DNA of 33,539 nt from Thermomicrobiales bacterium (lineage in GTDB: Bacteria > Chloroflexota > Chloroflexia > Thermomicrobiales > UBA6265), in NCBI GenBank assembly GCA_020432165.1, contig JAGQGU010000036.1:1-33539 (forward strand), written 5' to 3'. Of the stretch, positions 14,440-33,367 are shown one piece after another (position 1 is the stretch's first letter; each line of letters opens with the position of its first letter). The notes under the pieces were generated by a model. The model had not been told where the DNA came from. It saw only the letters and a program-made list of their open reading frames with translations, and did no database searches. Both the position numbers and the translations under genes were made by a program.

Positions 14440-15111
14440 CTAGCTGACGGTGCCAGCCCGATATCGTAGAAGGATCCAACAGGCGATTGCTGCCAACGCG
14501 ACGATGCCAATGCTAACGGTCGTCAGTTCGATTGCTGTCAGGCCGCTATCCTGGACCTGCGCTGTGGTATCGACACGAGCAAGTTCTGCTTCGATCGCGC
14601 TGCTTTCGGCGGCGGCGGATTCTCCGGTTTCCCGAACCTCACCACGCGAAAGCGCTGCCGCGGATTCCTGATTCTGTGACGCATTGGTGGACGAATCGGT
14701 TTCTCCTACCAGCGCGACATCGTTCGAGGTGGTGTTTTCTTCACCGAACAGTCCACCCAGCTGTGCTCCGCCCAATGCGATGAAGACTACTGCCGCAGCA
14801 ATCGCGACAATGCGTACGACCTTCTCGGCCAGCACGATTCTGGTGCTCCGAATAGGTGTCGGCGAGGCGGGGCTACTCAAGGGAGATGGTGAGGCCACCA
14901 TCTCTTTGGTCAACGCAAAAGAACGCGGAACATCGACTTCCCCCAATGCCGCGAAGGTGTTCTTGATTGTTGTCAGCGCATCAAGTTCTTCCGTGCATGC
15001 CGAACATGCGGCCAGATGCGCCAAAATGGCCGGCATTTCTGCCGACACGATTTCCCCATCCAGATATGCGCTGAGCTCTTCTGTAGTGAGATGTTGCGTA
15101 CTCATGCTCAT
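14440..15111 (-). CDS. Zinc-finger anti-sigma factor (transmembrane)
   Basis: A 223-residue anti-sigma factor. The N-terminal anti-sigma domain contains LSAYLDGEI and the HxxxCxxC zinc motif (His32, Cys36, Cys39). A membrane helix at about 97-120 (VVRIVAIAAAVVFIALGG) is followed by an Asn/Ser/Glu-rich extracytoplasmic part and a second helix at about 192-216 near the C-terminus. It should hold the sigma factor encoded just upstream (78-bp gap) at the membrane and release it on an envelope or redox signal. The ATG at 15111 follows GGAAG at close spacing; an alternative ATG two codons on makes no difference to function. Confidence 0.88.
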   Translation of the reverse strand: MSMSTQHLTTEELSAYLDGEIVSAEMPAILAHLAACSACTEELDALTTIKNTFAALGEVDVPRSFALTKEMVASPSPLSSPASPTPIRSTRIVLAEKVVRIVAIAAAVVFIALGGAQLGGLFGEENTTSNDVALVGETDSSTNASQNQESAAALSRGEVRETGESAAAESSAIEAELARVDTTAQVQDSGLTAIELTTVSIGIVALAAIACWILLRYRAGTVS

Positions 15112-15189
15112 TCTGCTTCCGATATGTATTGAGCCTCGATATGAACGCCGTTGTTCACATCCTGCGATTCCCGGACTCCGATCCCAAAA

Positions 15190-15819
15190 TCACTCATTAG
15201 GGAGACGAACAAAGCGCTCAGCCAGTTCCATCCCTGCTGGCGTTGATTGCAGGTATTCACGCAATCGACTTCGGCCGCGTGAAATGCGCGATTTCACCGT
15301 GCCAACCGCCGTGTTCATGATGTCCGCAATCTCGTCGTAGCCGTAACCCTGAACATCGCTGAGGACGATGGCGAGTCGCTGATCCTCAGGCAGTTGCAGC
15401 AGTGCCTGTTCCAGAAATGCACTCATCTCGCCGCGCGTACTGTACTGCTCGGGATGCTCACTTACGCTCACCGTGGCCCATTCCGGCTCGGATTCGAAAG
15501 GCTGGGCATCCAGGCTGGCAGCGGGCTTACGTGCTTTCGAACGCAGCATGTCATACGTACGATTTGTGGCGATGCGCAGCAGCCACGGCCGCACGATGCC
15601 GCCGCGGAAGCTATCGATCGCGTTCCAGGCGCGAATGAATGAATCCTGTGTTGCATCCTCTGCCAGGTGCGGATCACGCAACATGCGCAGGCACGTTGAA
15701 TAGACGGCTCGTTGATGCCGTTCCACAATCAGATTGAACGCAGCGAGATCGCCGCCCTGTGCCAGCACAATGAGCCGCTGATCTTCTTCGTTTGGATCCT
15801 GCTCCGTAATCTCCGTCAT
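15190..15819 (-). CDS. ECF RNA polymerase sigma factor (RpoE/SigW-like)
   Basis: A 209-residue extracytoplasmic-function sigma factor. Region 2 (about residues 25-95) shows FNLIVERHQRAVYSTCLRML, DPHLAEDATQDSFIRAWNAIDSFRG and PWLLRIATNRTYDMLRSKAR. Region 4 (about 140-195) shows ALLQLPEDQRLAIVLSDVQGYGYDEIADIMNTAVGTVKSRISRGRSRLREYL. It directs RNA polymerase to a small regulon, probably including its own operon. I chose the ATG at 15819 because of the GTGGGGA just upstream; an ATG at 15858 would add 13 residues without a ribosome site. It is followed by its zinc-finger anti-sigma factor and the SIMPL gene. Confidence 0.92.
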   Translation of the reverse strand: MTEITEQDPNEEDQRLIVLAQGGDLAAFNLIVERHQRAVYSTCLRMLRDPHLAEDATQDSFIRAWNAIDSFRGGIVRPWLLRIATNRTYDMLRSKARKPAASLDAQPFESEPEWATVSVSEHPEQYSTRGEMSAFLEQALLQLPEDQRLAIVLSDVQGYGYDEIADIMNTAVGTVKSRISRGRSRLREYLQSTPAGMELAERFVRLPNE

Positions 15820-15900
15820 GGTCCCCACATCATGCCCCGGCTCTGAATAAGGCCTCATTCTAGATTAACATGCGATGTGTGACGATGGTTACGATACCGG

Positions 15901-26896: not shown

Positions 26897-27274
26897 ATGT
26901 CTCAGGCAACCACTATTGCTCATCAGAAGGCGGTTCATGCCAGTTTGCAAGAGATGGCAACGACGCTCACTGAGGCACTCGGTCGAGTATTGGTGGCTGG
27001 AATTGTCGGTGTACGTAATCCCAAAACAGTCACACGCTGGGTAAACGGAGAAGTGACATCAATCAGAGATCGATACTCTGAGGAGCGGATGTTGGCTCTG
27101 TATCAGATAGTCGTGTTTATGCAGGAGTACGAAGCCGACGAAACAATTCGAGCATTCATGATTGGTATGAATCCAGTGCTGGACGATGCCTCACCTGCTA
27201 TGGAATTGCGCGAGGGGAATTTTGACAACGTCATGGGTGCCGCCAAAGTGATGATCACGGGTGGTTACGCGTGA
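26897..27274 (+). CDS. Antitoxin of a RES-type toxin-antitoxin pair (Xre/MbcA/ParS-like)
   Basis: A 125-residue protein placed directly before a RES-domain toxin, as antitoxins of this class are. The middle has a helix-turn-helix-like stretch (ALGRVLVAGIVGVRNPKTVTRWVNGEVTS), compatible with the antitoxin DNA-binding fold, and a C-terminal region that would mask the toxin (GMNPVLDDASPAMELREGNFDNVMGAAKVMITGG). The link 'GMNPxL...P' followed by a helix resembles the DUF2384/MbcA toxin-binding module. It should neutralise the toxin and repress the operon. GAAAGGA lies 6 nt before the ATG. The stop overlaps the toxin GTG by 4 bp. Confidence 0.75.
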   Translation: MSQATTIAHQKAVHASLQEMATTLTEALGRVLVAGIVGVRNPKTVTRWVNGEVTSIRDRYSEERMLALYQIVVFMQEYEADETIRAFMIGMNPVLDDASPAMELREGNFDNVMGAAKVMITGGYA

Positions 27275-27999
27275 CCGTCCTATCTGATCTGCAACAGTAT
27301 GGGATTACGCTCGATGAGGCTGTCTGGCGAGTGGTGTCCAAACGCTTCAGCCCCATGGCGGCACCACCGCGGTCATTGCAGGGTGAAAGTCGATTCGACG
27401 ACCCGCTGATCGGCACTGATGATGGTGGTAGCGGTTACTCAGTGCTCTATGCGGCCACTGAACCTAAAGCAGCTTTTCTCGAAGTCCTATATCAGTTTCG
27501 TCCAGCGATCCAGGCCGTAGCGGGATTTGCAGCGGATATGGTTCTCGATGTTGCTGAACGCGATCGCTTTCTCGATCCGGAAGGTCAGGTTATGCCCTCC
27601 TGGATGCGGCAGACCCAACTGAGTTCTGCCCAGCTTATGCCTGATGCCCCGTTGTTTGATCTCACAGACCCAGGTGCGATCCAGATGTTGCGACTCTTTT
27701 TGGCGCCATCGTTGATAGCGCTCGGGGTTGCTGATCTGGATTTTGGCGAAGTACTTGGAACCAATCGTCAACTCACGCGTGCGATTAGCAGATGGCTGTG
27801 GTCGCTTTCGGCGTCATCTGGCATTCCCTTGTTTAGTGGGATTCGATATAGAAGCAGACTCGATCCGAGTTGTTTCTGTCTTGCCCTCTTTGAGGATCGT
27901 TTCCGAGTCATCGGAGAGGTGAGCACGGAGACCATTACAACGCATTCTGCGGGATTCGCGGAGGCAGCGGAGATCTTAAGACTTCGCATTCCCGGATAG
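27271..27999 (+). CDS. RES-domain toxin (NAD+-degrading type)
   Basis: A 242-residue RES-family toxin. The fold motif is seen from residue 19 on: WRVVSKRFSP, then GESRFDDPL, SGYSVLYAATEPKAAFLEVLYQFRP. The conserved arginines (Arg20, Arg41), tyrosines and Glu71 are in the family positions. Characterised members (MbcT, and the Photorhabdus and Pseudomonas RES toxins) destroy NAD+ and stop growth. The C-terminal half (IRYRSRLDPSCFCLALFE) carries the closing Ser/Cys strand typical of RES. At 242 residues it is longer than the usual 150-190, so there may be an insertion in the middle. It starts with GTG in a GTGA overlap with the antitoxin. Confidence 0.8.
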   Translation: MTVLSDLQQYGITLDEAVWRVVSKRFSPMAAPPRSLQGESRFDDPLIGTDDGGSGYSVLYAATEPKAAFLEVLYQFRPAIQAVAGFAADMVLDVAERDRFLDPEGQVMPSWMRQTQLSSAQLMPDAPLFDLTDPGAIQMLRLFLAPSLIALGVADLDFGEVLGTNRQLTRAISRWLWSLSASSGIPLFSGIRYRSRLDPSCFCLALFEDRFRVIGEVSTETITTHSAGFAEAAEILRLRIPG

Positions 28000-28023
28000 C
28001 GATACTCTTTTCCCTCTCATCCC

Positions 28024-28047
28024 GTTACCACTTCTGAACACGGCTTT
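28024..28047 (+). promoter_or_regulatory. Weak ECF-like promoter match, module 1
   Basis: GTTAC (28024-28028) is followed after 15 nt by CTTT rather than the GCGT found at the same distance in modules 2 and 3. The -35-like half matches, the -10-like half does not. Confidence 0.25.
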
Positions 28048-28062
28048 CGCTGAGGTGATGGG

Positions 28063-28635
28063 ATGTACGCGCAGATGCCAGACAACACAGCATCGGATGA
28101 TGAGCTTACGATCATCGCTGCGGCATTGCGCGACCCGGCAGCATTTGCTCCGCTCTACGAACAACATGCCCCCGACATCTACCGCTTCTGCTACCTGAGA
28201 CTAGGCCAGCGCGAAGCCGCCGACGATCTCACCGCCAAAACCTTCATCCGCGCTATCGAGCGCTTGCATCAATACCGACCCAAATCCGGCGCGACATTTC
28301 GCAGCTGGCTCTTCGCGATCGCGCGCAACCTGCTGGCTGACGAATGGCGACGGCGTCGAGATATCCGCCTTATCCCTCCGATTGAGGATCTGACGCACGA
28401 CGACTATCCCGGACCCGAGCAACTTGCCATTCATCTTACCGAGATGGATCGATTGCGTGCCGCCTTGCAGTATCTGCCCGATCGCCAACGCGAGATCGTG
28501 GAGTTGCGCATGGTGGGATTCAACACCGATGAGATCGCCACAACGATGAATACCACTATCGCCGCCGTGAAGTCCGCCCAGGCGCGTGCCTACCGCACGC
28601 TGCGTGAACACCTCTCCGAAGGAGTCGAACCATGA
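28063..28635 (+). CDS. ECF sigma factor, module 1
   Basis: A 190-residue ECF sigma factor. Region 2 shows FAPLYEQHAPDIYRFCYLRLG, EAADDLTAKTFIRAIERLHQY and GATFRSWLFAIARNLLADEWRRRR. Region 4 shows ALQYLPDRQREIVELRMVGFNTDEIATTMNTTIAAVKSAQARAYRTLREHL. There is no C-terminal extension. Wording and residue choices match the sigma factors of modules 2 and 3, so the three are paralogs, this one the most distant. The ATG at 28063 has GAGGTGATGGG upstream; an ATG four codons later cannot be excluded. Its stop is in an ATGA overlap with the membrane partner, so the two are translationally coupled. Confidence 0.92.
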   Translation: MYAQMPDNTASDDELTIIAAALRDPAAFAPLYEQHAPDIYRFCYLRLGQREAADDLTAKTFIRAIERLHQYRPKSGATFRSWLFAIARNLLADEWRRRRDIRLIPPIEDLTHDDYPGPEQLAIHLTEMDRLRAALQYLPDRQREIVELRMVGFNTDEIATTMNTTIAAVKSAQARAYRTLREHLSEGVEP

Positions 28636-29801
28636 GGATACTCCATCGCGCCTCTCGCACTGACGAAATCGATCAGGCGCTAAACGCCCTTGTCAGTCGG
28701 CGGCCATACGACCCGGAGACTGCTTTGGTCTCCGATGTGATCGATACCCACACGCAGGCGATGTCCGCGCTGCGTTCTGATCCGGCGGCAACGGGCCCCG
28801 CTGCCGGGACATGGAATAGAGTGCTGCGCGCCAATGCGCAGCCAACAGCGAAAGGACAAGGAACAATGTCCGCAACAGCCACACTTCAGTCCCCACTACC
28901 TGGAGCAATCTCCGCACCGGCCAGGAAGCAAGCGGGAGGATTCAGCCATTTCGTGAACATCGCTGCCAGCGTTCTGGTGGTCGCGGCCATCGCGTTCAGT
29001 GGCTGGTTCGCCACTATGCATCTCCAGCCATCTGGTGACAACAGCAATGGTCTGCTTGGTATGGCGCAAGGCACACCAGGACTCGACAGTGCGACATGTG
29101 ATGTCGAGCCACTATCCGTTGATGAAGTAATGGCAATTGTGGAGAATCCATATTCTGCTTTTGATCACGACCTAATCACATCAAGAGATTGGCTCAAGGT
29201 CTGGGAGGAAAAGACAGGCTACGACCTCCTTGAGACCAACTCCCCGGCGATAGATCAGCAACTGCTTGACGGGTTTACCTATCCCGCAACTCAACCAAGT
29301 TTCGATGGTGCAGTCGATAGGGCAAATGGCTTTCTGGTTTGCGCTCAGAAAGGGACAATTGGCCAGGTGTTCGTCTATATGGATCCCAAGGAGATTCAGA
29401 GAATCGTGTTGGCGAATCATCCAGTTTATCGTAGCGAAGAACAGGTGCGCGCAACTGTAATAGAGTTGATGGAGATGCCGGGTTCAACGTTTGTTTTCCC
29501 CGGTGGTGATACTCTCCATGCTAGTAGCCTAAGTTTGGCAGTCAATCCAGAGATTGACAGTGCACTTGTTGCGCAAGGTGCCGGTGTCAGTAGATATGAT
29601 GCTACTCGGGTGATGATGTTTGGCATCATTGCTACCGATACCGATGGAACGGTTGTCTATCAGTCCGATGCCACCGGTGTTGCTTCACCAGTCGCCGGTC
29701 TCGAAAGGACTGAACGCTTCCGGCTGATTATTAAGCAGTCTTCCATTGATGGTCAGTGGTACGTTTTGGCGATTTTGCCCGATATGATCTACGTGATTTA
29801 G
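28632..29801 (+). CDS. Membrane partner of ECF sigma factor, module 1 (putative anti-sigma/sensor)
   Basis: A 389-residue single-pass protein with no family I can name. The cytoplasmic part (1-107) includes DEIDQALNAL and TWNRVLRAN (61-68), with no HxxxCxxC zinc motif. The membrane helix is about 108-128 (VNIAASVLVVAAIAFSGWF). The outside part has a TPGLDSATCDVEPLSVDEVMAIVENPY segment (Cys156), then NGFLVCAQKGTIGQVFVYMDP (Cys237), a hydrophobic VMMFGIIATDTDG strand and a final SIDGQWYVLAIL. This order resembles an NTF2/SnoaL-like fold, an inference only. From its overlap with the sigma gene and topology I infer anti-sigma function. A terminator follows. Confidence 0.8.
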   Translation: MRILHRASRTDEIDQALNALVSRRPYDPETALVSDVIDTHTQAMSALRSDPAATGPAAGTWNRVLRANAQPTAKGQGTMSATATLQSPLPGAISAPARKQAGGFSHFVNIAASVLVVAAIAFSGWFATMHLQPSGDNSNGLLGMAQGTPGLDSATCDVEPLSVDEVMAIVENPYSAFDHDLITSRDWLKVWEEKTGYDLLETNSPAIDQQLLDGFTYPATQPSFDGAVDRANGFLVCAQKGTIGQVFVYMDPKEIQRIVLANHPVYRSEEQVRATVIELMEMPGSTFVFPGGDTLHASSLSLAVNPEIDSALVAQGAGVSRYDATRVMMFGIIATDTDGTVVYQSDATGVASPVAGLERTERFRLIIKQSSIDGQWYVLAILPDMIYVI

Positions 29802-29879
29802 ACCAGCTAGATAGCGACCCTGCATACCGGGCCGATGAGATTAGCCGCCGTGCTACTGGATAGGTATGTCAAAACGAGA

Positions 29880-29907
29880 GACCGGGGCATCATTGCCCCG
29901 GTCTTTT
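29880..29907 (+). terminator. Terminator between ECF modules 1 and 2
   Basis: GACCGGGGCA (29880-29889) pairs perfectly with TGCCCCGGTC (29894-29903) around TCAT and is followed by TTTTGCGTTA. The hairpin and the next bases are nearly the same as at 31671-31699. Confidence 0.9.
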
Positions 29908-29928
29908 GCGTTAAGTCACATCGCTATT

Positions 29929-29952
29929 GTTACGTTTGTTGTGTCCACGCGT
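29929..29952 (+). promoter_or_regulatory. Candidate ECF promoter, module 2
   Basis: GTTAC (29929-29933), 15 nt, GCGT (29949-29952), then 28 nt to the ATG at 29981. Spacing and boxes are the same in module 3, although the bases between them differ, which is what selection on a bipartite ECF promoter would leave. Confidence 0.5.
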
Positions 29953-29980
29953 ATTACCTATCAAGCGGTGGAGGAGTGGT

Positions 29981-30535
29981 ATGGCGCACAACGGAATCGA
30001 TCCGTCCATGGAGGACGATGCCATTGTGCAAAGGGCGCGCAAGAACGTCGACGATTTTGCTCCGCTCTATGATCGATACGCTCTTTCCATGTACCGCTGG
30101 ATGTGCCGGGAAACCGGAGACGCCGAACTTGCTGCCGATCTCACCGCCCAGGTTTTCGTGCAGGCGCTGCAGCGCTTGCATCAGTACGATCCCCGGCGTG
30201 GGGCGACATTTCGTGCCTGGCTCTTTGCTATTGCCCGCAATCTGCTGCGTGATAGCTGGCGACGTTACAAGCCGGGGCCATTGCTCGCTGAGTTGGTCGA
30301 TCAGCGGCCCGGGCCAGAGGAACTGGCACTGCACCGAACACTGATGGACGATGTGCGCGCAGCGCTCGAGGCATTGCCGGAGAGGCAGCGAGAGACGATC
30401 GAACTCCGCCTCGCCGGACTCACCCATCGTGAGATCGCGGAGATTCAGGGCACGAGCGAAAACGCGGTAAGGATGGCGCAATCTCGAGCCATGAAAACGC
30501 TACGGGTGCTCCTGCACCAGGGAGTTAAGACATGA
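29981..30535 (+). CDS. ECF sigma factor, module 2
   Basis: A 184-residue ECF sigma factor. Region 2: FAPLYDRYALSMYRWMCRETGD, ELAADLTAQVFVQALQRLHQYDP and GATFRAWLFAIARNLLRDSWRRY. A short linker with RPGPEELALHRTLMDD. Region 4: ALEALPERQRETIELRLAGLTHREIAEIQGTSENAVRMAQSRAMKTLRVLL. It is strikingly similar to the module 3 sigma factor from the first residues (MAHNGIDPSMEDDAIV versus MNHNGVDPSREDDAIV). The ATG at 29981 is set by GGAGGAG 4 nt upstream and by the same layout in module 3. The stop is in an ATGA overlap with the next gene. Confidence 0.94.
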   Translation: MAHNGIDPSMEDDAIVQRARKNVDDFAPLYDRYALSMYRWMCRETGDAELAADLTAQVFVQALQRLHQYDPRRGATFRAWLFAIARNLLRDSWRRYKPGPLLAELVDQRPGPEELALHRTLMDDVRAALEALPERQRETIELRLAGLTHREIAEIQGTSENAVRMAQSRAMKTLRVLLHQGVKT

Positions 30536-31611
30536 CCGATACGGATGCATCCTTTGACGAACTACGAAATCTGATGAATCAGGCTCACCGCACATTCACT
30601 GGACGGGACGATGTTCCCGCTGAGATCTGGATGCGCGTGCGATCCCAAATACCCCAGAACCCACCAACGGAGATACCCCCCATGGAGACCACACTGACCC
30701 AATCCCCTGCATACAACGTGCCGCCCCGATCAACACCTGGTCGACCATCAACGATCTCTCGATACCTCAACTTCGCAGCGAGTGTTGTTATCGTTGCCGC
30801 CATTGCGTTCGGTGGCTGGTTTGCCGCCCTAAACCTGCAACCATCTCGCGACAATAGCAATGGGTTGCTTGGTCTTGCCCAAAGCACACCCGTCGCCCAA
30901 ACGTGCGATGTCGAACCGCTTACGGTTGACCAGGTGATGCAGATTGTGAAGAACCCCTGGGAGTTCGGATTTAGCCAACTGAACCCATCAACCGAGTTCT
31001 CCGGTCCGGAGTTTACTGAGGTGAGCTTGAGACCTTCTACCGCAGAGTTCGATGCGGCGACAAAGACAAAACCAGCAGAGAAGGATTTTGAAGACGCGAT
31101 AGCGGTCGCGAATTCCTATCTTGCCTGCTTACCCACTGCTTCTTGGGGACAAGTCTGGGCGTTGAGCGATCCGGTATGGGTTCAGAGTTCGATTTTGGCC
31201 CACTTCCCGGTTTTCGCGAATGAATCTGAGGTACGTGAATTTATCGAGGGGCGTATTGATGAACCGCTCTCCGTGGACCACAACCCCCTGGACGATATCT
31301 ATGCACTGGCGGATGGTCAATCGATTGTGGCGAATCCGGATATTGGTGCGGCACTGACGATCTGGCCAGGCAATACCTCGAATAGCGCGATGCTGTTTGT
31401 TGCTTTCGGTGTTCTGGTAACAAATGACGATGGCAGCATTGTGCTGGAGTCGAATGCTGAGGGTGAGTCCCTTGAGTATCAAACTGGAAGCTCCAGGCAG
31501 CGACCGACTATCGTCGTCGGGCAATCCAGCGCTGATGGCAGCTGGTACATTGCCCCGTGGTTGAGCTCATATGCGGCGCTCTGGGAGTATCAATATGCCA
31601 CTGGTGAGTGA
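30532..31611 (+). CDS. Membrane partner of ECF sigma factor, module 2 (putative anti-sigma/sensor)
   Basis: A 359-residue paralog of the module 1 and 3 partners. The cytoplasmic part (1-78) has FDELRNLMNQAHR and EIWMRVRSQI (31-40), the same W-x-R helix as in module 3. The membrane helix is about 79-99 (LNFAASVVIVAAIAFGGWFAAL). Just outside it, LQPSRDNSNGLLGLAQSTP is almost the same as in module 1. The outside domain holds TCDVEPLTVDQVMQIVKNPW (Cys125) and NSYLACLPTASWGQVWALSDP (Cys199), then FPVFANESEVREFIEG, an acidic stretch and a final SADGSWYIAPWL. No zinc motif. The inferred role is to hold the module 2 sigma factor at the membrane. A terminator follows. Confidence 0.8.
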   Translation: MTDTDASFDELRNLMNQAHRTFTGRDDVPAEIWMRVRSQIPQNPPTEIPPMETTLTQSPAYNVPPRSTPGRPSTISRYLNFAASVVIVAAIAFGGWFAALNLQPSRDNSNGLLGLAQSTPVAQTCDVEPLTVDQVMQIVKNPWEFGFSQLNPSTEFSGPEFTEVSLRPSTAEFDAATKTKPAEKDFEDAIAVANSYLACLPTASWGQVWALSDPVWVQSSILAHFPVFANESEVREFIEGRIDEPLSVDHNPLDDIYALADGQSIVANPDIGAALTIWPGNTSNSAMLFVAFGVLVTNDDGSIVLESNAEGESLEYQTGSSRQRPTIVVGQSSADGSWYIAPWLSSYAALWEYQYATGE

Positions 31612-31670
31612 CCCCACCTGGCTAACATGATCCGTAGAACCCTCACGCGTACTTCGTCGGAATTCTCAAG

Positions 31671-31699
31671 GACCGGGGCATTATCGCCCCGGTCTTTTT
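31671..31699 (+). terminator. Terminator between ECF modules 2 and 3
   Basis: GACCGGGGC (31671-31679) pairs with GCCCCGGTC (31686-31694) around a 6-nt loop and is followed by TTTTTGCGTTAGTC. It is a near copy of the hairpin at 29880-29907, so the intergenic block was duplicated together with the genes. Confidence 0.9.
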
Positions 31700-31720
31700 G
31701 CGTTAGTCCAGAATGGCACC

Positions 31721-31744
31721 GTTACTCTTTACCCACCCATGCGT
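31721..31744 (+). promoter_or_regulatory. Candidate ECF promoter, module 3
   Basis: GTTAC (31721-31725), 15 nt, GCGT (31741-31744), then 28 nt to the ATG at 31773, with GGAGGAG at 31762-31768. Box positions relative to the start are the same as in module 2. Confidence 0.5.
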
Positions 31745-31772
31745 TCTGTACTGCAGTCGGCGGAGGAGTGCG

Positions 31773-32327
31773 ATGAATCACAACGGAGTTGATCCGTCCC
31801 GGGAGGACGATGCCATTGTGATGGCCGCACGCGACGATGTCGATGCGTTTGCACCGCTCTACCAGCGATATTCAGGTCCGATCTTTCGCTGGATGTATCG
31901 GGAGACTGGTGATGTGGATATTGCCAACGACTTCACCGCTCAGGTGTTTGCGCAGGCACTCCAGAATCTGCATCGATACCAGCCACGACAGTCCTCGAGC
32001 TTTCGGAGCTGGCTCTTCACGATCGCCAGGAACCTCCTCCGCGATTCCTGGAGGCGATACCGACCAACATCGTTGCCGATGCACATGCCCGATCATCGAC
32101 CTGGGCCGGAGGAGATCGCTATTCGTCGCACCGAAATGGATGAGTTGCGAGCAGCGTTCAGTTCTCTTCCGGCGCGACAGAGGGAGATTGTGGAGCTTCG
32201 GCTTACTGGATTGAGTATGCAGGAGATTGCCGATATCCAGGGCACGAGTGTGGAAGCCGTGAGAACAGCGCAGACACGCGCGTTCAAAACCCTCCGCGCA
32301 CTCCTGACGAAGGAGGTAGCCAGGTGA
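31773..32327 (+). CDS. ECF sigma factor, module 3
   Basis: A 184-residue ECF sigma factor, the closest paralog of module 2. Region 2: FAPLYQRYSGPIFRWMYRETGD, DIANDFTAQVFAQALQNLHRYQP and SSFRSWLFTIARNLLRDSWRRY. The linker again has RPGPEEIAIRRTEMDE. Region 4: AFSSLPARQREIVELRLTGLSMQEIADIQGTSVEAVRTAQTRAFKTLRALL. The length equals that of module 2. The start ATG at 31773 is set by GGAGGAG 4 nt upstream. Its TGA overlaps the GTG of the membrane partner. Variation in the linker and helix-turn-helix (THREIAEIQGTSENAVRM versus SMQEIADIQGTSVEAVRT) suggests related but not necessarily identical promoters. Confidence 0.94.
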   Translation: MNHNGVDPSREDDAIVMAARDDVDAFAPLYQRYSGPIFRWMYRETGDVDIANDFTAQVFAQALQNLHRYQPRQSSSFRSWLFTIARNLLRDSWRRYRPTSLPMHMPDHRPGPEEIAIRRTEMDELRAAFSSLPARQREIVELRLTGLSMQEIADIQGTSVEAVRTAQTRAFKTLRALLTKEVAR

Positions 32328-33367
32328 TAGATGACGATTTGTTTCTGAACGATTTACGGTATCGAATCGAATCGGCCCATCGTGCCAATCCGGGCACATA
32401 TGAACCTGCGACCGATGTGTGGCAGCGAGCCAAATCGCAGATCGATTCCGGAAAACCCAGGAAGGACACGACCATGATTCCAGCATCAACTCTCGCCATA
32501 CCAGCGCCGCAACTCCGGAAGCCCGCTCGCAGAGAATGGGGGCACTATCGTAACATCGCTGCCATCCTCGCTTTGGTCGTCGCCCTCGTGTTGGGAGGCT
32601 GGTTCGCCAGGAACCAACTGCCACCAGAGTCGGAACCGACCTCTCGTTTCGCCGTGCTCGGATTGCAAACTGAGGGAACGGCCTGCGATGTCGAGCCACT
32701 CACCGTTGATCAGGCGATCGTGATCATGAAGAATCCATTCACCGTCATCGACCTGGTGCTCTACGACATGACTGGAATGCACGCAAAGATGTCTGGGCAA
32801 GAATACGCGGTTCCTGCGCACTCCCAAATGACTCAGCTTATGACCCATAACCCGAGAAACGATATTGATCAGGATGAATGGGCCGAGACGTTGGAGCTCG
32901 GGAATCGATATCTGGATTGCATTCAAAACGGGACTGTTGGACAGGTGCTTGCGCTCATGGATCCGTTTGTTGTTCAGGGTTACCTGCGTGACCAGTTGCC
33001 TCTCTTCATGAACGAGGAAGCCACTCGTTCATTTTTGGCCGATCTTTTGCAAGGGAGCGCCATTGAGTATGGTTGGACGGATTCGGATCAACTCGCCTTT
33101 GTCTCCGACAAGGTGCTTCAGATCAACCCCGACTTTGGATTGATTTATGCTGACTCAACGGTGCTGTCTCGCAACGGGTTCTACACAGAGGTGATTGGTG
33201 CACCTGTATTGTTCAGCCACTCAGATGGCACTGTCGCCAGCGCTCCCACCTTCGCTGGTATGCCATTTGGCATAAATGTCGAGGTGACCAGGTTCGCCCG
33301 GAATGTCTTCTTCGTGAAGTCCGCATTTGATGGTCAGTGGTATGTGTTTGGCATCTTCATTCCATGA
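32324..33367 (+). CDS. Membrane partner of ECF sigma factor, module 3 (putative anti-sigma/sensor)
   Basis: A 347-residue paralog of the module 1 and 2 partners. The cytoplasmic part (1-76) has LNDLRYRIESAHR and DVWQRAKSQI (31-40), aligned without gaps to module 2. The membrane helix is about 77-95 (RNIAAILALVVALVLGGWFA). The outside domain has ACDVEPLTVDQAIVIMKNPF (Cys121), then NRYLDCIQNGTVGQVLALMDP (Cys199), LPLFMNEEATRSFLADLL, INPDFGLIYADST and a final AFDGQWYVFGIF. No zinc motif. It starts with GTG in a GTGA overlap with the sigma gene. No module-type terminator follows; the structured dispersed repeat begins 27 bp after the stop instead. Confidence 0.8.
   Translation: MIDDDLFLNDLRYRIESAHRANPGTYEPATDVWQRAKSQIDSGKPRKDTTMIPASTLAIPAPQLRKPARREWGHYRNIAAILALVVALVLGGWFARNQLPPESEPTSRFAVLGLQTEGTACDVEPLTVDQAIVIMKNPFTVIDLVLYDMTGMHAKMSGQEYAVPAHSQMTQLMTHNPRNDIDQDEWAETLELGNRYLDCIQNGTVGQVLALMDPFVVQGYLRDQLPLFMNEEATRSFLADLLQGSAIEYGWTDSDQLAFVSDKVLQINPDFGLIYADSTVLSRNGFYTEVIGAPVLFSHSDGTVASAPTFAGMPFGINVEVTRFARNVFFVKSAFDGQWYVFGIFIP

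Follow-up and report, generated by a model that had tools for sequence, protein, structure and literature searches.

Whether neighbouring sigma factor/anti-sigma factor modules are kept as fixed units or can trade parts is the question raised by one end of a 33,539-nucleotide stretch of DNA from a Thermomicrobiales bacterium (GenBank assembly GCA_020432165.1, contig JAGQGU010000036.1); this whole stretch, called the window below, is an entire contig (C24) of the source genome (G000), which comprises 3.2 Mb in 105 contigs. Its last 5.5 kb carry, on the forward strand, three pairs, each made of an extracytoplasmic function (ECF) sigma factor and a membrane partner. The original prediction, made from the letters of the window, had described three consecutive pairs on one strand with 4-bp ATGA or GTGA overlaps, and this is what is found (ATGA in modules 1 and 2, GTGA in module 3). 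Its interpretation held as to local amplification, the co-encoded sigma/anti-sigma anatomy and the lack of a zinc finger; it did not include the exchange of sensors between modules that is described here, and its suggestion that parallel modules might discriminate several related envelope signals is a conjecture. Module n (Mn) denotes sigma factor Sn with partner An, M1–M3 lying on C24 and M4–M5 on contig C48. When genome contigs were scanned, the sigma pattern returned a single close relative, the sister-species metagenome-assembled genome (MAG) Thermomicrobiales bacterium ACE_NR_CHLO14 (JAMLHR; G003), and the partner pattern gave no match. The modules of G003 are designated gC95; gC93a, gC93b and gC93c; and gC37a, gC37b and gC37c.

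Reciprocal exchange of sensors between modules 2 and 3

For part-wise comparison the partners were split at the transmembrane (TM) helix and at a conserved CDVEPLT motif. The sigma factors pair S2 with gC93b (89% identity) and S3 with gC93c (79%), and the cytosolic halves of the partners follow them (A2–gC93b 57%, A3–gC93c 46%). The extracytoplasmic halves pair crosswise, A3 with gC93b (69%) and A2 with gC93c (54%); other pairs of sensors in the array are 19–33% identical, except the orthologues A5 and gC37c (59%). Modules 2 and 3 have thus reciprocally swapped their sensors between the two species, each keeping its own sigma core.

Maximum-likelihood trees were computed for the sigma factors, for sigma plus cytosolic half plus TM helix, and for the outside half; the conflicting pairings are supported at 91–100 and the opposite pairings are rejected by the approximately unbiased (AU) test (p ≤ 6e-6). 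The site patterns of A2 and A3 against the G003 partners show a clean switch, and both change-points (Table 1) fall between the end of the TM helix and the CDVEPLT motif. Within the partner genes, exact DNA stretches common to modules 2 and 3 reach no more than 10–11 nt in either genome, and because so little exact DNA is shared, a misjoin by the assembler is very unlikely.

Sensors are retained in modules 5 and 8 (59% and 44%). Module 1 compared with gC95 shows 78% identity in the sigma factor, 48% in the cytosolic half and only 29% in the sensor. Across ten array modules, where the sigma factors are more alike the cytosolic halves are so too (Mantel r=0.67, p=0.0002); for the sensors this hardly holds (r=0.28, p=0.047). 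The amino-acid identity of the TM helix is raised between paralogues (A1–A2 61%, gC93c–gC37b 72%); identity at third codon positions shows no clear rise, and within-genome gene conversion of the TM segment is not claimed.

Table 1. Coordinates of the features in the window, with the evidence or closest counterpart of each.
Feature	Position	Strand	Remarks
Xre/antitoxin-like gene, first of island	26897..27274	+	48% syntenic copy on G003 contig C95; no Pfam match
RES-domain gene, toxin-like, second of island	27271..27999	+	PF08808 E 3e-15; syntenic RES gene in G003
Putative ECF-type promoter, module 1, GATAC-N17-CGTT	28001..28026	+	sequence; similar CGATAC..CGTT upstream of G003 module-1 sigma
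S1, ECF sigma, module 1	28063..28635	+	Sigma70_r2/r4_2; 78% to G003 gC95 sigma
A1, module 1 partner	28632..29801	+	extra N-terminal cytosolic stretch, TM, extracytoplasmic domain from ~29097
Terminator, gap between modules 1 and 2	29880..29907	+	array-specific hairpin
Putative autoregulated ECF promoter, module 2, GTTAC-N16-CGTA	29929..29953	+	leader alignment
S2, ECF sigma, module 2	29981..30535	+	89% to G003 gC93b sigma
A2, module 2 partner	30532..31611	+	N-terminally 57% to gC93b, C-terminally 54% to gC93c
A2 cytosolic helices, presumed sigma-binding domain	30547..30648	+	helices 6-21, 30-39; binding inferred
A2 TM helix	30757..30834	+	helix 76-101
A2 breakpoint interval vs G003	30802..30855	+	~residues 90-108; 102 informative sites; likelihood ratio (LR) 39.4; 0/2000 permutations
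A2 extracytoplasmic domain (sensor half)	30904..31608	+	orthologue on G003 module-3 partner
Terminator, gap between modules 2 and 3	31671..31698	+	hairpin
Putative autoregulated ECF promoter, module 3, GTTAC-N16-CGTT	31721..31745	+	leader alignment
S3, ECF sigma, module 3	31773..32327	+	79% to gC93c sigma
A3, module 3 partner	32324..33367	+	N-terminally 46% to gC93c, C-terminally 69% to gC93b
A3 extracytoplasmic domain (sensor half)	32684..33364	+	orthologue on G003 module-2 partner
A3 breakpoint interval vs G003	32708..32719	+	residues 129-132; LR 53.2; 0/2000 permutations

Anatomy of the sigma factors and their partners

S1–S3 (184–190 aa) match PF04542 and PF08281, for sigma70 regions 2 and 4, above the cut-off, as expected of ECF sigma factors, which are of about 180–200 aa and have these two regions but not regions 1 and 3. 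With TIGR02952, the BldN family, they score 99.5–105.8 bits against an equivalog cut-off of 206; among solved structures the closest is 6dxo, that of sigmaBldN bound to RsbN (E 1.9e-27). S2 and S3 are close to each other (63%) and S1 is more distant (46–50% to the other sigma factors of the array), as had been noted before, but the nearest paralogue of S3 is S5 on C48 (66–67%).

A1–A3 gave no useful match in Pfam, NCBIfam or PDB sequences, and profile searches yielded no curated family, so that no match to a described anti-sigma family speaks against the original prediction. They lack a zf-HC2 match and the HxxxCxxC motif, the cytosolic parts of all three containing no Cys, in contrast to the classical pair at 14440-15858 (-), which does match zf-HC2 (14440-15111). 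Two candidate assignments were rejected: DUF5667 (PF18915) matches no member of the partner family and is found in neither G000 nor G003 at E ≤ 0.1, and membership in the SigI/RsgI class does not apply, the sigma factors being ECF and no RsgI_N occurring among the Pfam matches. RsbN is absent from the fold matches of a search by which small helical parts are barely tested.

An AlphaFold model of A2, built from a 20-row alignment (mean predicted local distance difference test score, pLDDT, 69.9), predicts two cytosolic helices joined by a long linker to the TM helix, beyond which the outside domain is folded; no second TM helix is predicted, and the remaining partners align with A2. The outside domain of A3 modelled alone reaches pLDDT 80.3 and a predicted template modelling score (pTM) of 0.80. 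Structural neighbours of the A2 and A3 sensors are almost all NTF2/SnoaL/cystatin-like and weak (Z 4–7; best Z 5.5 for A2 and 7.1 for A3; best Foldseek E only ~0.05), and they include an anti-sigma factor, RsgI9 of C. thermocellum; on these models the sensor halves are probably NTF2-like, a fold in which helices pack against a curved antiparallel sheet. Cysteines 125 and 199 in the outside domain of A2 are invariant or nearly so and could form a disulphide. The genome encodes Peptidase_M50 site-2 protease homologues, and release of sigma through regulated proteolysis is possible on the strength of the gene content.

Extent of the array, synteny and empty site

The set of three modules described in the original prediction is part of a longer array: the window ends inside the array region, and two further modules open C48, preceded at the contig start by the same terminator and leader. 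A profile search for the partner found eight copies in the source genome (three on C24, two on C48, two on C83 and one on C87) and nine in G003, of which some are truncated where a contig ends. In a set of 61 genomes from the order, these two are the only ones with several strong relatives; G010, G018 and G019 have one distant copy each, and the other genomes gave only weak partial matches.

The search for similar arrays in related genomes was rewarded by a syntenic array in G003. The source genome and G003 have the same flanks: to the left of module 1 lie pyruvate kinase (79% identity between the two), an Xre-like gene (48%) and a RES gene (29%), and to the right of the last module an M16 peptidase (85%). 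By virtue of this shared synteny C24 and C48 most likely belong together, giving at least five modules at the locus; no direct overlap between the contig ends was found, and their adjacency rests on synteny. The same locus in G003 holds about seven modules, those listed above.

A third congener, G001, was used for comparison of the flanks. There pyruvate kinase and M16 are neighbours, and neither the Xre/RES pair nor the array lies between them; it is because of this empty site that the array is regarded as an island, which is restricted to the genus. Homology of G001 to C24 ends at the pyruvate kinase stop codon (26727) and resumes on C48 at 3573, just past the stop of module 5; either, therefore, a stretch of at least 10.4 kb with the array and the Xre/RES pair was inserted, or it was cleanly lost from G001.

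Several further observations concern the island and its relatives. The Xre-like/RES pair (26897-27999) is toxin–antitoxin-like, occurs together with the array in the two species, is missing from the empty site of G001 and diverges fast (48%, 29%). In G003 an extra 389-aa open reading frame (L033, 4101-5270 (-); no Pfam family, weak twin-arginine translocation signal) lies after the last module and before a small open reading frame at the right edge of the island. Outside the array there are three more-distant modules (L010, 2744-6272, and L011, 3694-5432), two in tandem on C83 and one on C87 between MurJ-like and LepA-like genes; the C87 module is syntenic and unswapped in G003. In G010 two BldN-like sigma genes flank, on one strand, a distant member of the partner family (L038, 1579-4466).

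Terminators, leaders and putative promoters

The two hairpin terminators between the modules of the window, predicted to be near-identical, are 93% identical over 28 nt, and in the 3.2-Mb genome the exact hairpin occurs only at these two sites. A looser form has three sites in the source genome, all in array gaps or immediately ahead of module 4 where C48 begins, and five in G003, four of them in array gaps; two other congeners have none. Eight module-2-type leaders from the two species align without gaps on GTTAC-N16-CG at fixed spacing, with M4 as the exception (GTCAC..CC). The aligned motif resembles an ECF promoter upstream of each sigma gene and would be consistent with autoregulation. 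Its use to define a regulon was dropped (7 genome sites as against 21 for the reversed control), the credible sites being those of the array only.

Directly after the T-run of the terminator and before the putative promoter, a conserved GCGTTAAGTCACA-like stretch is seen in most gaps (29908-29923 and the matching gaps in L009, L013, L033 and L035); it may be an upstream element or a recombination site.

Proposed mechanism and alternative explanations

The reading we favour, and consider likely, is that of an autoregulated island array in which the sigma/anti-sigma cores are conserved, while the sensors, probably NTF2-like, are interchangeable and have been exchanged between modules. A BldN-like ECF sigma factor would be coupled in translation to its single-pass partner, which would hold it by the short cytosolic helices and sense a signal by the outside domain; upon the signal sigma would be released to transcribe the module that encodes it and other targets. 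Each module would consist of two separable halves, sigma with the cytosolic anti-sigma part and the extracytoplasmic sensor, and conserved DNA at the TM/CDVEPLT junction and in the terminator/leader would allow homologous recombination to re-join them. Two ordinary single crossovers would suffice: a TM x TM crossover excising the sensor2–terminator–S3–N3 stretch, and a second by which the excised stretch re-inserts at the terminator/leader repeat. A bolder reading takes the locus for a sensor-shuffling one, where two alternating repeat elements, the TM/motif junction and the terminator/leader, re-assort sensors among sigma cores so frequently that strains, or cells within a population, differ. 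The array would then be for ECF signalling what recombination-driven shuffling is for antigens or specificities; we regard this as improbable.

The exchange might be illusory if intact modules had duplicated in tandem and diverged, the odd pairing being an error of assembly or binning. Both genomes are indeed fragmented, with contig ends inside the array; the exact DNA shared within the genes is, however, far below the usual assembly k-mer, the swap is interior to contigs C24 and C93 with the same order and matching leaders, and the conflict between trees is strong, so that this explanation is highly improbable. Hidden paralogy, in which ancestral duplicates of the S2 and S3 cores carried other sensors and were differentially lost with no direct M2–M3 exchange in these lineages, deserves more thought, as duplications do occur (G003 has the extra sensors gC93a and gC37a) and a second S2-like leader, 79% identical to that of gC93b, lies at the end of C95. 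It still requires an earlier recombination between core and sensor, however, together with losses so coordinated that the same two positions end up with reciprocal pairings, and we think it unlikely. A different doubt concerns function: that the partners match no described anti-sigma family would also be expected of membrane-anchored accessory proteins which merely share an operon with the sigma factors. Against this stand the start–stop overlap in all three window modules, the repeated duplication of sigma and partner as a pair, the TM topology, and the fact that the cytosolic half tracks sigma while the outside half hardly does; we judge such a role very unlikely.

Several points weigh against the interchangeable-sensor reading itself. 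One exchange is proven; the module-1 sensor may have been replaced or may merely evolve fast (clade support 76/82), and the orthology of module 4 and gC37b is ambiguous. Frequent gene conversion of the TM segment is without support, third-position identity not being clearly raised. The exact promoter motif is not enriched genome-wide relative to its reversed pattern, and the NTF2 assignment rests on Z scores of 4–7. The array is known from two genomes only, both draft MAG-type assemblies in which contig breaks fall within the array, and its order across the gaps is an inference.

Relation to known systems

The lack of a zinc finger is in itself not new, because non-zinc anti-sigma factors are already known in class III (anti-sigma domain ASDIII), represented by RsbN, which binds sigmaBldN, and in class II, represented by CnrY (PMC8103513, PMC7406223). 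The Streptomyces RsbN–sigmaBldN pair resembles the modules in combining a membrane-anchored non-zinc anti-sigma factor with the sigma structure nearest to that of the window sigmas; unlike it, those sigmas fall below the BldN cut-off and their partners have no sequence match to any PDB chain. RsbN-type proteins have three helices, the first two on sigma4 and the third on sigma2 of another molecule (PMC7406223); two cytosolic helices are predicted for A2, and A1 has an extra N-terminal stretch. RsbN–sigmaBldN is a single pair, with neither an array nor an exchange of sensors (PMC8103513, PMC7406223). Classical class I pairs with zf-HC2, such as that of the window, share the operon layout and the single TM helix; the partners described here differ in lacking HxxxCxxC and, for A2, in having two predicted cytosolic helices instead of the four of ASDI. 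In ECF41 and ECF56 a SnoaL/NTF2-like domain is likewise tied to control of an ECF sigma factor, but it is fused to sigma inside the cell (PMC3426412, PMC7730460) and not carried outside on a partner.

By analogy, the closest working likeness is to the clostridial SigI/RsgI sets (PMC6056542, PMC12203970). Clostridium thermocellum has 8–9 paralogous sigma/membrane anti-sigma pairs per genome (PMC4711584, PMC12203970, PMC6056542), in which the anti-sigma part on the inside is short, a single TM helix follows and the outside sensors vary, among them the NTF2-like domain of RsgI9 (7sjy). SigI is not an ECF sigma factor, however, and the sensors there are mostly carbohydrate-binding domains, whereas those of the window modules all belong to a single diverged family within a single array, and the modules shown to have exchanged them can be named. 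In the literature searched, the coverage of which was partial, no description of sensor exchange between anti-sigma paralogues was found.

What is new here is that sensors have demonstrably been exchanged between adjacent ECF modules of an island restricted to one genus. The modularity of ECF signalling has in this way been put to a natural experiment, in which the partner is cut at the membrane helix and the sensor re-plugged onto another sigma core, and the outcome suggests that the cytosolic half must stay matched to sigma while the outside half is swappable. The wiring of signal to response would then be re-pluggable by recombination, and the two species offer ready pairs of parent and chimera for asking whether any sensor drives any core.

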